A DNA stretch of 64,000 bases, from positions 62,001-126,000 of the forward strand of contig NZ_NIHB01000005.1 in the NCBI RefSeq assembly GCF_002591915.1. The letters are read 5' to 3'. The translations under genes and the position numbers were made by a program. The stretch comes from Marinicella litoralis (lineage in GTDB: Bacteria > Pseudomonadota > Gammaproteobacteria > Xanthomonadales > Marinicellaceae). Each line of letters starts with the position of its first letter. The first letter of the stretch is position 1. Positions 2,078 to 58,990 of this stretch are shown piece by piece. A model generated the notes under the pieces. It saw nothing but the letters and a program-made list of their open reading frames with translations, was not told the origin of the DNA and did not search any database.

Positions 2078-4291
2078 TTAAGGTTGAGGTGCTTCAAAGC
2101 CATTGCCAAAAATTAAATCATTGTCGGCAGTGTAACAAGCGCCACCATCAACAAAAATACACTCGACCCATTCAGGGTGATCAATGAAGGGGTTTCTGTT
2201 TTCTTGTTTGGTAAAGATGTAATTGTTGCGATTTCTTTCGATGTCATCGACTGGGTCAGCTGCATGCCATTGCAGCAATGTAGAAAGCAAACCCATATAG
2301 GGACCATAGCCATTGTTATTGGCAAGTAGGTTGGTGTCATCGGTTAAGACCAAATCAACTTCGTCGATGGCATCGCCTGAATACCGAACATCCATATAAA
2401 ACATGGCACGCGCAATGTCCCCTTTGCGAAAATTCCATACTTCAAACGAATCTGCGTCGAACCAATTTGAATTGCCTGGATAAACGCCAGAGCCACCACC
2501 AATGGTATCGACTTCAGGTGTATTGGGGTCGTCGTGGGTATCAGTAGGCCTTTCATTGCATTGGGCATTGCAGTTATCAAAATAGAGGTTGCCACGGTCT
2601 CCGTTATAACCTACATCAGACAACATCAAATGATGGGTGTCTGTTCTGGCTGCATTGTTATCGCCTAAAGAACCTGAGCTGAAACCACGGGATTGAGGCC
2701 ATGTGTGCTCGCGATTATAGGCTTGTTGTCCACCACCTTGGTAACAATAGTCATTGTTCTTATAAACCATCCAAACATATTCAATCACCTCGCTTGGGTC
2801 ATTGGTTGGGCAGTCATCTGTGGTTGGGGCTTGATCAGCATATGAAAGCACGTCCCAAGTGTCTTCTGCACCCGATGAATAAGGAAAAACAATGTGGTCA
2901 TCAATGATGTTATGTAATGAATCTCTGAGGGTTTGTGCATTGCTGGTGTCGGCTGAATCATAATAACCATCTAAGGTGACGCAGTTGATATTTTCAGTGC
3001 CAGGTGACGGGGTGAATGCCTTGAATGAAGAGGTGTTCAATTGACCACCTGAACCATTGGTACAACGAATCAATGATTCATTGGTGGCATTTCCATTGGC
3101 GTCCTCATCAACTTGTAATTGACCAGGATTAAGTAAGGTCAGCAACTCAGTATCAGGAGGGCCGGAACCATAGACCACGGCATCCATTAAATCGGTATAA
3201 GTGATTGGATCACCGGTCATATAATTAATAGAGTCTGCTGCATAAAGGGCCACTGCATCGGCACCATCTTGTAGTTCATTATTGATCAATAAATACCCAT
3301 TGGTATCTGTGGTCATGCTGTTTAAGCTGATGACACTGGTTGATAAATCAGTGTCACCGTCATACAAAACCAAAGTGTAACCATCCGTTGAGGTGTTTGG
3401 ATTGCCCAGCAGCTCAATAAAATCAGCAGCTACACTGATGGTATCAATTTCATTGATCACAAACTGTGCAATGGGAGGTGTGATGTTGGAGGCCGCATTC
3501 GGGGTCGGCATGCCTTCACCAAAAGTGAAATCTGTATTTTCTGATGTTTCGTCACTGCCAGCAAAACCATTGCCGCCAGATTGAATTTCACCACCTTCGC
3601 TTAAATCAATGCGTTGCCAGCTGTTGCCACTGTTGTGAGTACTGGTGCTGATGACCACTTGGTTGGCAATCGATGTGTCATTGAGGTATGTACTGGTATC
3701 AGAGTCGGCATCTGGGCCGTCTATGGCTACACTGGTTTTATCAATGGCCTCTACCTTATCCCCCCAAACCACATAGTCCAAGTCTTGTACCAAGTCAGTC
3801 ACACCATCCCAAGAAAATAAGACCACCACCTCGCCACTGTTGTCTGTTAAGTTTCCTTGACCATTGATAGAGCCAGCAAAAGCTTCTCGCATGTCGGCAA
3901 TGGCATCTGCTGTCCCGTCTTCATACAGCTCATAGGTGGGGTTTTCTCCATAAGCCGTGAAAAATGAGTTTGAGCCTGCAATTGCGACCGTTTGGTATTC
4001 GCCAGCATTGATGGTTGCACCAGCAGGAAATCGTGCAAAAAAATCGGAAAAACCACCGCCACCACCACCGCCGTTAACAATCTGATAATAATAAGTGCCA
4101 TCACCAGAAAAAGTGGCATCAGTTAAGTAAACGTCTGAAAGGTCAATGGGGTCATTACCGTTGTTATAAATTTCGATGAATTCGTTGCTGTTGGGTATGA
4201 TGCTGATTTCAGAAATCAATAGGTCTTCTACGCCTGATTGGGCAGAAAATGCCATGCCGATGCAAAGCATTAAGGTGGAGATTTTTTTCAT
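2078..4291 (-). CDS. Secreted lamin-tail-domain / endonuclease I family protein
   Basis: A 737-residue exported protein. It begins with a signal peptide (MKKISTLMLCIGMAFSAQSG). Residues about 22-150 form a lamin-tail domain ('LLISEISIIPNSNEFIEIYN'), and a second, weaker one starts near 275 ('FVINEIDTISVAADFIEL'). From about 440 there is an endonuclease I domain whose catalytic region reads 'YNREHTWPQSRG' (near 525) followed by 'TDTHHLMLSDVGYNGDRGN', as in secreted extracellular nucleases. The protein ends in DLIFGNGFEAPQP, a tail shared with the beta-helix protein ending at 62176. It probably degrades DNA outside the cell or at its surface; the lamin-tail domains may bind polymer or envelope. 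Glycine runs near residue 75 look like a linker. It has its own transcription unit. Confidence 0.85.
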   Translation of the reverse strand: MKKISTLMLCIGMAFSAQSGVEDLLISEISIIPNSNEFIEIYNNGNDPIDLSDVYLTDATFSGDGTYYYQIVNGGGGGGGFSDFFARFPAGATINAGEYQTVAIAGSNSFFTAYGENPTYELYEDGTADAIADMREAFAGSINGQGNLTDNSGEVVVLFSWDGVTDLVQDLDYVVWGDKVEAIDKTSVAIDGPDADSDTSTYLNDTSIANQVVISTSTHNSGNSWQRIDLSEGGEIQSGGNGFAGSDETSENTDFTFGEGMPTPNAASNITPPIAQFVINEIDTISVAADFIELLGNPNTSTDGYTLVLYDGDTDLSTSVISLNSMTTDTNGYLLINNELQDGADAVALYAADSINYMTGDPITYTDLMDAVVYGSGPPDTELLTLLNPGQLQVDEDANGNATNESLIRCTNGSGGQLNTSSFKAFTPSPGTENINCVTLDGYYDSADTSNAQTLRDSLHNIIDDHIVFPYSSGAEDTWDVLSYADQAPTTDDCPTNDPSEVIEYVWMVYKNNDYCYQGGGQQAYNREHTWPQSRGFSSGSLGDNNAARTDTHHLMLSDVGYNGDRGNLYFDNCNAQCNERPTDTHDDPNTPEVDTIGGGSGVYPGNSNWFDADSFEVWNFRKGDIARAMFYMDVRYSGDAIDEVDLVLTDDTNLLANNNGYGPYMGLLSTLLQWHAADPVDDIERNRNNYIFTKQENRNPFIDHPEWVECIFVDGGACYTADNDLIFGNGFEAPQP

Positions 4292-4392: not shown

Positions 4393-4421
4393 AAAAAAGG
4401 CCGCAATTTATGCGGCCTTTT
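4393..4421 (-). terminator. Terminator of the hvf-doxX operon
   Basis: An 11-bp perfect stem (4395-4405 with 4411-4421, loop ATTTA). Read on the minus strand it is followed by a T run at 4398-4393. It lies 24 bp after the doxX-family stop. Confidence 0.8.
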
Positions 4422-4444: not shown

Positions 4445-5110
4445 TTATCCGGTGGGTGTAATGAATCGATCGGCAATCATCAGGACAACTCCGGTGGCCA
4501 TGAAGGCGATGCCAGTGGTGGTCATCACGAAAAACAACGGCAAACCAATTACAATCAAGCCCAATCCTTTCGAAATAAAATCTGACTGGATGGGGTGATG
4601 AGTGTCACCTTTCATGAATTGAGTGAGGATGTGGTCCAAACTGAATTTTCCAGCGCCTGAGAATATCAGTGGTAATAACAAAATGACAAACAACAGTGGC
4701 AGTTTAAAGTTACCGGCACCTTTGTTTGTGATGGCATAGCCTTCCCACAGCTGACCCAATGATGCATAACTTTCAGGCCAATGCACGGCTGCTGTAGCCA
4801 CTGCAGTAATCACCAGCAATGACACGGCTGCAAATCGAGTGAATAAACCTAATAGCAGCAAAATGGCAAATATATATTCCCCCCATGCCGCCATAAACCA
4901 AGATACATCGGCTGGAATGTGGTTAAACGGGAATGGAAAGTTACTTTGGATGCCAGAGAACCAATTTTCCCCATTGATTTTTTGGCTGCCAGCTTCATAG
5001 AATTCCCAAAAAAGTATCAATCGAATCATCAGTGGTGGCACCCATTGCCCAACTGAATTCAGTCTACTGGTTACATTTTCCCACAGGGTTTGCGCATTGT
5101 TTAATGACAT
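4445..5110 (-). CDS. DoxX family membrane protein of the hvf operon
   Basis: A 221-residue integral membrane protein of the DoxX family, recognised by 'MIRLILFWEFYEAGSQKI' and 'WGEYIFAILLLLGLFTRFAAVSLL'. Four hydrophobic segments are followed by a further hydrophobic pair near the C-terminus (from about residue 190), making it somewhat longer than minimal DoxX proteins. It is the last gene of a four-gene minus-strand operon, 13 bp after hvfC. DoxX-like genes commonly accompany DUF692/DUF2063 pairs. Its role there is not settled; an electron-transfer or membrane-supporting function is a guess. Confidence 0.8.
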   Translation of the reverse strand: MSLNNAQTLWENVTSRLNSVGQWVPPLMIRLILFWEFYEAGSQKINGENWFSGIQSNFPFPFNHIPADVSWFMAAWGEYIFAILLLLGLFTRFAAVSLLVITAVATAAVHWPESYASLGQLWEGYAITNKGAGNFKLPLLFVILLLPLIFSGAGKFSLDHILTQFMKGDTHHPIQSDFISKGLGLIVIGLPLFFVMTTTGIAFMATGVVLMIADRFITPTG

Positions 5111-5123
5111 GGTTGGTTCCTCT

Positions 5124-5885
5124 TTATTTGTTTTTGACGGTTAAAATGATGTCTTGCTGGTGCCATTGGTTTAAGGTTTGCAGGCCAAATTGTACGAATT
5201 GGGCAAGGTCAGGGTGTTGATGTTGTTCACCCAATGTTTCCAGCACCTGTTGTCCTGTTGCTTTTTTGTTGTTAATCAATGTTTCTAACAGCAGGGCAGA
5301 AAAGGGGTTCAGTTCTGAAAAATGAACTTGGTATTCAGTGTCTCGCCAAATCAACATAAATAAGGGCTGGTCCAATGGTTGTTTGGGTTGATTACTGGCT
5401 TTTATTTGATGCACCGGAAATTGATAAGCCTGAACCTTCACCAGTGGTGAAACTTCGGGTATGGCCATCAATAAATCATTGGTATCAATTGCGGGGTTTT
5501 TATTGATTTCGATGTTGTGTTTTTCAAGGTGTAACTCAATCCATTCATAATGGGCCAACTCATAAAGAAAAGGTTTGTTTGGATCGGCTTGCCGGTGTTT
5601 TAAGTATTCGACAAATTCCCTGGGTATTTCAGGAAAGTGAGGGGTTTTGTTGTTTTCCATGCGATAAAAATCTCGCACTAAATTTTTCCATGCAGTTTCT
5701 TTGTACAAAGACCTGATAACCGGGAAAGAACCAGCAAGCAATCCAGCAATGCTGTTAATGAATAACTCCAGATAAATGGCCATTCGGCGGTGTTCAATCT
5801 GATCAGGTATTTTGTTGGCTTCAGGGTTTCTGATGTGTGCCGCGAAATCGACTTGAGCCTGTTTAAATGTTGGCTTGTTTGGCAT
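5124..5885 (-). CDS. hvfC: HvfC-like DUF2063 partner protein of the MNIO enzyme
   Basis: A 253-residue protein of the DUF2063/HvfC family (N-terminal 'putative DNA-binding' domain by Pfam tradition). Recognisable parts are 'QAQVDFAAHIRNP', 'HRRMAIYLELFINSIAGLLAGSFPVI' and 'DFYRMENNKTPHFPEIPREFVEYL'. In characterised systems this protein binds the DUF692 enzyme and helps recognise the precursor; it does not act as a DNA-binding regulator. The start at ATG 5885 (MPNKPTFKQ) is preferred over the longer frame because it matches the family's N-terminus. It overlaps the last 23 bases of hvfB, which suggests translational coupling and a fixed stoichiometry. Confidence 0.87.
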   Translation of the reverse strand: MPNKPTFKQAQVDFAAHIRNPEANKIPDQIEHRRMAIYLELFINSIAGLLAGSFPVIRSLYKETAWKNLVRDFYRMENNKTPHFPEIPREFVEYLKHRQADPNKPFLYELAHYEWIELHLEKHNIEINKNPAIDTNDLLMAIPEVSPLVKVQAYQFPVHQIKASNQPKQPLDQPLFMLIWRDTEYQVHFSELNPFSALLLETLINNKKATGQQVLETLGEQHQHPDLAQFVQFGLQTLNQWHQQDIILTVKNK

Positions 5886-6726
5886 GGTTGTTACTGTCGC
5901 TTTGATACTTTTGTTGTAACTGGTCAATTCTAGAAACTTCTGACAACAGTTCAGCAACTGGGGGAAAATTAAAATCACGCTCTAAGAGGGTGGGGAATAC
6001 GCCGTAATTTTTATAAGTGTATTCCAATATATCCCATACATTTTCTATGACCTTGGCACCATGGGTGTCAACAATCAAATCTTCGGCTTCATTATAATGG
6101 CCTGCAATGTGGATATAGGCGATTCGATCGGTGGGCAGTTGATCTAAAAACTGCAAGGGATCGTAACGGTGATTGATGCTGTTGACATGGATGTTATTGA
6201 CATCCAAATGCAACAAACAATCCGCTTTGGAGATCACTGCATTGATGAATTCAATTTCAGTCATTTCCGAATTTGGTTGAGTGAGGTAATAAGAGACATT
6301 TTCTAGTGCCATTTGTTCGCCAAGAATGTCTTGAACCCTCATGACCCGCTCGGCCACATGATTCACGGCTTCTTCAGTGAATGGTATGGGCATCAAGTCA
6401 TACAATTGTCCACCGTCTGTACAGTATGAAAGGTGTTCAGAGTAAATGGGGGCATTGATTTCGTCTTTGAATTTTTTAACAGCTTTGACAAATGGAATGT
6501 TCAGTTCATCGGGTCCACCGATTGATAAGGATAAACCATGAAGAATCATTGGGTAGCGTTCAGCAAAAGTTCGAAAGTCATGACGGGCTTTGCCACCAAC
6601 AGTCATCCAATTTTCTGGTGCCACTTCCATGATTTTTACTGGACTCAGGTCTCCGTAAGATTGAAACGGGGACACAAGTCCCCGTCTCAAACCGATACCG
6701 GCACCCGAAATGTTTAATAAACTCAT
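5863..6726 (-). CDS. hvfB: HvfB-like MNIO enzyme (DUF692)
   Basis: A 287-residue DUF692 protein, a multinuclear non-heme iron-dependent oxidative enzyme with a TIM-barrel fold. Candidate iron ligands and conserved stretches are H63 in 'ILHGLSLSIGG', E97-H98 in 'YSEHLSY', E142 in 'ALENVSYY', 'HLDVNNIHVNS' (173-183), H206 and H210 in 'YIHIAGH', D220 and H222 in 'VDTHG', and E249 in 'LLERD'. In Haemophilus influenzae HvfB with HvfC converts cysteines in EGKCG motifs of HvfA into oxazolone/thioamide pairs that bind copper. The gene lies 14 bp after hvfA, whose product here is full of EGKCG motifs, so the same chemistry is expected. No key residue seems missing. Confidence 0.92.
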   Translation of the reverse strand: MSLLNISGAGIGLRRGLVSPFQSYGDLSPVKIMEVAPENWMTVGGKARHDFRTFAERYPMILHGLSLSIGGPDELNIPFVKAVKKFKDEINAPIYSEHLSYCTDGGQLYDLMPIPFTEEAVNHVAERVMRVQDILGEQMALENVSYYLTQPNSEMTEIEFINAVISKADCLLHLDVNNIHVNSINHRYDPLQFLDQLPTDRIAYIHIAGHYNEAEDLIVDTHGAKVIENVWDILEYTYKNYGVFPTLLERDFNFPPVAELLSEVSRIDQLQQKYQSDSNNHAKQANI

Positions 6727-6740
6727 TTCAGATTATCCAG

Positions 6741-7325
6741 TTATTCGCCGCCGCACTTACCTTCGCCGCATTTACCTTCGGCTTTATCGGCTTTATCGGC
6801 TTTTTTGTCGTCGCCACATTTACCTTCACCGCATTTGCCTTCGGCTTTTTTGTCATCGCCACATTTGCCTTCACCGCATTTGCCTTCGGCTTTTTTGTCA
6901 TCGCCACATTTGCCTTCACCGCATTTGCCTTCGGCTTTTTTGTCGTCGCCACATTTACCTTCACCGCATTTACCTTCGGCTTTTTTGTCGTCGCCACATT
7001 TACCTTCACCACATTTGCCTTCGGCATCTTTGTCGCCGCCACATCTACCTTCGGCTTTTTTGTCGTCACCGCATTTGCCTTCGCCACATTTACCTTCGGC
7101 TTTATCACCTTTGGCTTTCTTGTCGTCGCCACATTTGCCTTCGCCACATTTGCCTTCTCCAGACCCATCGACTTTGGCAATGCGTCCATCAGCATTTTGG
7201 TAACCATCACTTAAGTCAGTTTGACCAAACGGGTTATCAGTACCGCTCATCAAAGCGCCAGCTCCAACAACAGTAACGGCTGCAGCAATAGCGGCATTGA
7301 CTGGTTTTATTTTAAAATTTTTCAT
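6741..7325 (-). CDS. hvfA: HvfA-like EGKCG-repeat precursor peptide
   Basis: A 194-residue exported precursor. Residues 1 to about 27 form a signal peptide with a hydrophobic core (AAIAAAVTVVGAGALMSG). A short leader (28-56) precedes a repeat domain from residue 57 to the end. That domain holds 16 EGKCG motifs and one EGRCG variant, 17 cysteines in all, mostly as EGKCGEGKCG pairs joined by DDKKA. There is no cysteine outside the repeats. In the known system each EGKCG cysteine is a modification site for the MNIO enzyme, giving a copper-binding peptide; that is inferred here from homology and the adjacent hvfB and hvfC. Start ATG 7325 follows a strong Shine-Dalgarno sequence. The number of motifs is unusual, see findings. 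Confidence 0.92.
   Translation of the reverse strand: MKNFKIKPVNAAIAAAVTVVGAGALMSGTDNPFGQTDLSDGYQNADGRIAKVDGSGEGKCGEGKCGDDKKAKGDKAEGKCGEGKCGDDKKAEGRCGGDKDAEGKCGEGKCGDDKKAEGKCGEGKCGDDKKAEGKCGEGKCGDDKKAEGKCGEGKCGDDKKAEGKCGEGKCGDDKKADKADKAEGKCGEGKCGGE
6744..7157 (-). repeat. In-frame 45-bp repeats encoding EGKCG pairs
   Basis: The 3' two-thirds of hvfA is a direct-repeat array of about 45 bp per unit (EGKCGEGKCGDDKKA), with one shortened degenerate unit (EGRCGGDKDA) and two units with lysine-rich insertions (KGDKA and DKADKA). Synonymous third-position differences occur between units, so not all copies are very recent. The array opens long meaningless frames on both strands. Confidence 0.9.
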
Positions 7326-7331
7326 AAATAT

Positions 7332-7432
7332 CTCCTCCGAGGGAATGATTAATTAATGTATTCGCAAAACGGTCATCGATTTCAATCGGTTAAATTACCA
7401 ACCATCAATAAATTGTTTCGGTGTTTATTATA
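7332..7432 (-). promoter_or_regulatory. hvfA promoter -10 and Shine-Dalgarno
   Basis: On the minus strand a perfect TATAAT lies at 7432-7427, with a TTGTTC candidate -35 about 19 bp before it. A strong GGAGGAG ribosome site lies at 7338-7332, six bases from the ATG. I see no obvious copper-regulator operator. Confidence 0.5.
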
Positions 7433-7470
7433 AGCACATAGAGTTGACCATGAACAATTTAATTTATTAC

Positions 7471-7505
7471 AAAAAAAACGCCCAATTTTTGCAAATTGGG
7501 CGTTT
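7471..7505 (-). terminator. Terminator of the 2-oxoacid dehydrogenase operon
   Basis: A 13-bp perfect stem (7476-7488 with 7493-7505, loop TTGC), read on the minus strand into a T run. It separates the E2 gene from the hvfA promoter. Confidence 0.88.
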
Positions 7506-7534
7506 CAATGGTGCAGTTAATGAAAAATTAACTA

Positions 7535-17230: not shown

Positions 17231-17600
17231 CAAACCGCGTATCGATAAATACAGTTGGTGAGTGCAACGAATCAGCCGTATTTTCATAAACGCAGTCGCA
17301 GTGATTACGGTTTCGCGCAGCGAAGAAGTGGTCATGAAGACACTGAAGCCAAAAGCTTCAAACCGCGTAGCGATAAATACAGTTGGTGAGTACAACGAAT
17401 CAGCCGTATTTTCATAAACGCAGTCGCAGTGATTACGGTTTCGCGCAGCGAATAAGTGGTCATGAAGACACTGAAGCCAAAAGCTTCAAACCGCGTAGCG
17501 ATAAATACAGTTGGTGAGTGCAACGAATCAGCCGTATTTTCATAAACGCAGTCGCAGTGATTACGGTTTCGCGCAGCGAAGAAGTGGTCACGAAGACACA
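17231..17600. repeat. Tandem 128-bp repeat, almost three copies
   Basis: Three direct repeats begin at 17231, 17359 and 17487, an exact 128-bp period; the third ends near 17600. The copies differ at only a few positions. Each full unit holds a GAAGC-CAAAA-GCTTC hairpin and a TTCGC-GCA-GCGAA hairpin. The array fills the infC-rpmI gap, 487 bp in all. No gene is supported in it; the minus-strand frame across it is a by-product of the repeat. Confidence 0.93.
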
Positions 17601-22524: not shown

Positions 22525-22601
22525 CGGAACGTGGCGCAGCTTGGTAGCGCACTACAATGGGGTTGTAGGGGTCGGAGGTTCGAATCCTCTCGTTCCGACC
22601 A
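22525..22601 (+). tRNA. tRNA-Pro (GGG)
   Basis: A 77-base cloverleaf. Acceptor stem CGGAACG (22525-22531) pairs with CGTTCCG (22591-22597), followed by A and an encoded CCA. The anticodon arm is CTACA-ATGGGGT-TGTAG, giving anticodon GGG with G37. The T arm is GGAGG-TTCGAAT-CCTCT. All arms fold as expected. Confidence 0.95.
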
Positions 22602-58511: not shown

Positions 58512-58885
58512 GGGTTGTTGGCTTCAGCCAACCCTTTTTCCTGGTAATCGGAGTATATAGGTCGACTGAAGTCGACAACCCAGGAGTAAGACATAAGGTT
58601 TGGGTTGTTGGCTTTAGCCAACCTTTTGCTTTTGCAATTGAGCCATACTGGTCGACTGAAGTCGACAACCCAGGGGTATGAAATAAAACTGAAGTGGATT
58701 ACCCGAAGGTAAGACATAAAGTTTGGGTTGTTGGCTTTAGCCAGCCTTTTGCTTTTGTAATCGAGCCACACAGGTCGACTGAAGTCGACAACCCAGGAGT
58801 AAGACATAAGGTTTGGGTTGTTGGCTTTAGCCAACCCTTTTCCCTTTGTAATCGAGCCACACAGGTCGACTGATGTCGATAACCC
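58512..58885. repeat. Array of four 70-bp nested-hairpin elements
   Basis: Four related elements at 58512-58581, 58602-58671, 58725-58794 and 58815-58885. Each starts GGGTTGT and ends ACAACCC (outer stem). It contains TTGGCTTTAGCCAA and GTCGACTGAAGTCGAC inner hairpins, the last copy being degenerate. Starts are 90, 123 and 90 bp apart, so the array is a 213-bp block of two elements, duplicated. It fills the 586-bp divergent gap between the metalloprotease and PhnA-domain genes; 58405-58511 and 58886-58990 hold the expected promoters but no clear consensus. Confidence 0.9.
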
Positions 58886-58990
58886 AGAGGCATGAAATAA
58901 AGCTGAGGTGGATTACCCGAAGGTATGAACTGAAATAAAATGGCAATTAAGTCTCAATAGAATTTAAATTAAACTGTGGTTGAAAGTATA

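Follow-up and report, generated by a model that had tools for sequence, protein, structure and literature searches.

The window analysed here is a stretch of 64,000 nucleotides from Marinicella litoralis. Near its start lie four genes in the order hvfA-hvfB-hvfC-hvfX, all on the minus strand. hvfA (6741-7325) is a 194-aa open reading frame for a precursor peptide, hvfB (5863-6726) encodes an MNIO (DUF692) maturase of 287 aa, hvfC (5124-5885) encodes a 253-aa DUF2063/RRE partner whose 5' end, at an ATG start, overlaps the end of hvfB, and hvfX (4445-5110) encodes a DoxX-family membrane protein. A longer alternative reading frame for hvfC begins at a GTG and extends to 5978.

The identity of these genes can be read directly from NCBIfam. 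HvfA matches the two-motif HvfA domain model NF050137 (E 2.8e-45, 151.6 bits, cut-off 19.5) and also reaches the equivalog model NF050188, with 95.2 bits against a cut-off of 95 and hence a margin of only 0.2 bits. HvfB matches NF003818 (415.5 bits, cut-off 360), HvfC matches NF050145 (280.3 bits, cut-off 142) and HvfX matches NF050144 (138.2 bits, cut-off 80). Because all four genes are assigned to this one system, each far beyond chance, the operon is by sequence match an ordinary captophorin (oxazolin / Buf_EGKCG) RiPP cluster, in line with the hvf-type operon that the first-pass annotation had read from the hvfA-hvfB-hvfC-doxX order; a DoxX-family HvfX is frequent, though not universal, in such operons. 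Two other MNIO systems were considered and rejected, namely bufferin 1 (BufB, DUF2282), for which the MNIO_BufB model gave 266 bits, below its cut-off of 310, and the precursor had no Pfam match, and methanobactin (MbnB), for which TIGR04159 gave 40 bits against a cut-off of 325. A search of the rest of the genome found no further MNIO or EGKCG precursor, leaving one of each. The operon belongs to a known RiPP class, of which it is a well-formed and long example.

HvfA contains 16 EGKCG motifs and one EGRCG motif, which account for all 17 of its cysteines. Along the chain the motifs occur in runs of 2, 2, 1, 2, 2, 2, 2, 2 and 2, mostly separated by DDKKA, so that most of them form EGKCGEGKCG doublets within a 45-bp tandem unit. 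Tandem Repeats Finder places this array at 6796-7157 (minus strand) with 8.0 copies and 82% matches, and with the translation this upholds the motif count and repeat length initially reported. The longest exact repeat inside hvfA is 77 bp. In the central units TGC GGT mostly ends the first motif of a doublet and TGT GGC the second; this retention of doublet phase in codon use implies that the duplicated unit is 45 bp and not 15 bp. Owing to its repetitive nature the array is open in further frames, for example 6710-7276 on the plus strand, and the EGKCG frame is the only one found with family matches and a conserved leader. The N-terminus of HvfA is hydrophobic and signal-like, with a weak cleavage site of its own, and the relatives carry AxA-type sites as judged by eye.

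The leader element NPFGQTDLSDGY (7200-7235, minus strand; residues 31-42 of HvfA) follows the signal-like segment and precedes the core. It follows the pattern NPF-x4-[LMI]-x2-GY, which is strongly conserved across gammaproteobacterial EGKCG precursors and occurs with fixed spacing in 47 of 58 complete precursors, most of the others having near variants; its P, F, G and Y are invariant in our alignment A1. One of the two helices that AlphaFold2 predicts for HvfA (residues 9-17 and 38-45) overlaps the motif, at low confidence. Leader conservation has been described for Microbulbifer (PMC12538549), and the main text of the related literature searched does not mention the motif by sequence. We propose that it is a candidate recognition element for the RRE domain of HvfC. 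The homologous FonBC tolerated each single alanine change before the core of a short test substrate (PMC13097082), which may have lacked the motif. We regard this element as the best additional lead from the locus.

The enzymes have clear structural counterparts, HvfB matching 3BWW from Histophilus somni (3e-83) and HvfC matching 3DEE (1.2e-10). Residues N175, D242 and H244 are functionally essential in the characterised HvfB (PMC13419390). They correspond to N177, D220 and H222 of the Marinicella protein, and N174, D241 and H243 of 3BWW are spaced like the essential triad. The HvfA array offers such a cysteine-modifying iron enzyme, whether processive or distributive, a natural substrate of considerable length.

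The oxazolin system HvfABCX of nontypeable Haemophilus influenzae is reportedly the subject of a study by Manley et al. 2024. The Marinicella operon resembles it in gene content, gene order and essential MNIO residues, and furthermore in its RRE/DUF2063 partner, DoxX protein and AEGKCGEGKCG doublets (PMC13419390), whereas the H. influenzae HvfA has six cysteines in three doublets and the Marinicella HvfA has 17, one of them in the EGRCG singlet. Fontiphorin FonABC of Fontimonas thermophila and gonophorin, the 'captophorins' (PMC13097082), likewise combine EGKCG repeats with an MNIO and a PME1 partner and are likely to share a 5-thiooxazole product with the present operon; FonA, on which enzyme work has been done in vitro, has seven sites, compared with 17 in the Marinicella HvfA. 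MmrABC of Microbulbifer (PMC12538549) is similarly a genus-wide cluster with a conserved leader and a variable EGKCG number, at five to eight cysteines compared with 8-18 motifs in resolved Marinicella arrays. The long Buf_EGKCG/oxazolin proteins (PMC12452194) also have arrays that are expanded and contain EGKCG twice in each repeat, but their repeat is 17 residues long and that of Marinicella HvfA 15, and Pseudoalteromonas piscicida ATD05916.1 has 58 cysteines, far more than the protein described here.

The comparison of motif number across related genomes shows directly that counts differ between species. Resolved arrays of other Marinicella contain 8, 8, 9, 10, 11, 12, 12, 14, 16, 17 and 18 EGKCG motifs, and the 58 complete precursors found at 80 related loci, a set that does not include the window's own genome, range from 2 to 18. 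In a class-wide draw the HvfA domain was present in 103 of 370 gammaproteobacterial genomes. The window has six separate strong unit matches in a range of 1-7 among the 103 carriers, and only four other genomes equal or surpass it, although this is a crude measure because some of the genomes carry two such genes or contigs that are cut. Published Buf_EGKCG/oxazolin proteins span 31 to 506 residues with up to 58 cysteines (PMC12452194). Since Marinicella arrays reach 18 motifs and a published relative 58 cysteines, the 17-site array is long but not exceptional. The description 'highly expanded' in the first-pass annotation therefore holds in a relative sense, for a precursor that is among the longer ones of its neighbourhood and lies comfortably within the known range.

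The single EGRCG motif (7038-7052, minus strand) uses the codon AGA, one base from AAA, and is the only unpaired motif in the array. No other Marinicella array showed it, and among the 524 cysteine contexts of the 58 complete precursors it appears once, in Thiohalophilus; the same contexts include EGSCG 85 times, EGNCG 12 times and EGACG five times. It had been suggested that this site tests whether the enzyme needs the lysine. FonBC accepted arginine, alanine and threonine at the lysine position in both repeats and left a single-repeat substrate unmodified, two repeats being required (PMC13097082), so that arginine tolerance has already been answered for a homologue. In HvfA the substitution coincides with the singlet, and its modification state would therefore not distinguish a role of the lysine from one of the doublet.

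The EGKCG residues do not vary, so motif copies differ by synonymous changes, and these can be used to compare arrays. Copies within one genome differ by 1.42 (first in a run) and 1.34 (later) changes per 15 nt, compared with 1.81 and 1.76 across genomes. The gap of 0.41 changes per 15-nt motif was equalled in 0 of 2000 label permutations, a test that ignores the shared ancestry of the genomes. The spacers are uniform inside each genome and differ among genomes (DDKKA, GDKKA, GEKKA, EGHDKDA and ESxAKxDKxA), and their length varies from 5 to more than 20 residues both between and within relatives. In the HvfB tree few branches are resolved in the window's clade, where counts of 10, 16, 17, 17 and 18 follow no evident trend. 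These between-species comparisons support array change by duplication or unequal exchange, and to that extent the proposal that copy number changes stands, with 8-18 motifs among species and arrays homogenised within genomes.

The same repeats interrupt assemblies. Among the 19 family genomes with a full HvfB match, six have a contig that ends within the hvfA array (G004, G007, G009, G015, G016 and G031), and in four of these the remaining, leader-containing half was located on another contig. Such breaks also affect genomes of only 20-40 contigs, in which the chance of a break in a given 400-bp segment is about 0.2-0.4%. Copy numbers are hence censored in draft assemblies, and for this bacterial family about one third of the draft-genome repeat counts are cut short. 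On these grounds the number 17 might itself be partly an assembly product, near-identical 45-bp units having been collapsed from short reads and the real array being longer. We consider this highly unlikely, as the contig passes through the whole array, the longest exact repeat is below common read lengths and the units are set apart by synonymous changes. A bolder reading of the array, that hvfA is a contingency-type locus whose unit number shifts fast enough within a species to set how much copper the exported peptide can hold, the longest arrays being under-reported in public drafts because assemblies break inside them, is one that we entertain tentatively and think rather unlikely.

Collectively, we think it very probable that this captophorin operon makes a periplasmic multi-site Cu(I) chelator whose array has grown by duplication of a 45-bp unit. 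By analogy with homologues, from which we infer the chemistry, copper binding and export, HvfC would present the HvfA leader to the di-iron MNIO HvfB, which would oxidise the cysteines of the EGKCG doublets in succession to 5-thiooxazoles. The modified chain would then leave via Sec and act in the periplasm as a flexible chelator of Cu(I), and the 17-site array has probably grown, and probably stays alike, through tandem duplication or unequal exchange of the doublet-plus-spacer unit. The oxazolone/thioamide pairs named at first have been superseded in the literature, two groups having reassigned the cysteine modification to 5-thiooxazole (PMC13097082, PMC13419390). About two sites would probably share each Cu. 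Native MS of the seven-site FonA showed as many as four bound Cu (PMC13097082), and extrapolating that ratio, should it hold, to 17 sites would give about 8-10 Cu. It is plausible that copy number is tied to copper-buffering capacity, and it may even be tuned to copper load. The arrays of the genus, which have 8-18 resolved sites and keep the same genomic position, could be used to test metal capacity against repeat number.

An AlphaFold2 beta-helix has been published for a mid-size Buf_EGKCG protein with 17-residue repeats (PMC12452194), and HvfA could in principle be a similarly folded copper store with its cysteines facing inward rather than a flexible string. Its repeat is however 15 residues, its spacers are of variable length, and its AlphaFold2 model has a mean pLDDT of 42 and zero strands, albeit from a shallow alignment and with a modification that cannot be modelled. 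We rejected the beta-helix on this model and regard such a fold as quite improbable. The metal itself may also be questioned, since DoxX homologues are linked to oxidative and sulphur stress and some related clusters are induced by gold and oxidants (PMC12452194, PMC13097082), so that the peptide might serve mainly for another soft metal or for oxidative or sulfur stress, a role at which DoxX would hint. Efflux would be otherwise covered, by a separate CopA-type Cu(I) ATPase of the genome, and no copper operator was recognised upstream of hvfA. CopA ATPases and periplasmic copper binders nevertheless occur together in many bacteria. The 5-thiooxazole peptides tested to date moreover generally bind copper (PMC13097082), and we judge a role other than copper buffering unlikely.

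The region upstream of hvfA contains a conserved promoter-like near-palindrome, GTGCTTATAATAAACAC (7421-7437, minus strand), which spans a TATAAT that is likely to be the -10 box of hvfA. In the upstream alignment GGTCA together with GTGCTTATAATAAACAC is common to most close Marinicella relatives. It is not recognisable as a copper operator, and a copper regulon based on it was rejected, as the genome contains one exact copy and near matches are about as frequent as in a reversed control. A sigma-70 scan gave hits no higher than shuffled sequence, and the conserved TATAAT site was absent from its list. The best match to CueR in the genome was a MerR-type protein at 90 bits, under the cut-off of 147, and a literature search for copper in Marinicella found nothing relevant among the papers listed. 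A terminator-like hairpin (7475-7506, minus strand) separates hvfA from the E2 gene upstream of it and is also present in the upstream alignment of the relatives; another, with an 11-bp inverted repeat, follows hvfX (4395-4421, reported on the plus strand). A search for RNA elements found none near the operon and, in the whole window, only a tRNA at 22525.

The order E1beta-E2-hvfABCX, in which the first two are 2-oxoacid dehydrogenase genes, is kept in Marinicella wherever the contig reaches far enough. In several species the next gene after hvfX encodes an endonuclease I; in the window this is a 737-aa protein (2078-4291, minus strand) in which a signal-like N-terminus and a lamin-tail domain precede the endonuclease I domain. 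A second MNIO, scoring about 270 bits against the HvfB model, is present in three Marinicella genomes (L028, L029 and L030). In one of them (L030:895-3100) it comes after a 158-aa Cys-rich protein whose two halves are similar and which resembles precursors of the Cys-Lys type. Elsewhere in the window are a 128-bp tandem repeat of 2.9 copies, 97% alike and with no Rfam match (17231-17599), and tandem repeats of 90-123 bp with GGGTTGTTGGCTTCAGCCAACCC inverted repeats, which are REP-like (58512-58887).
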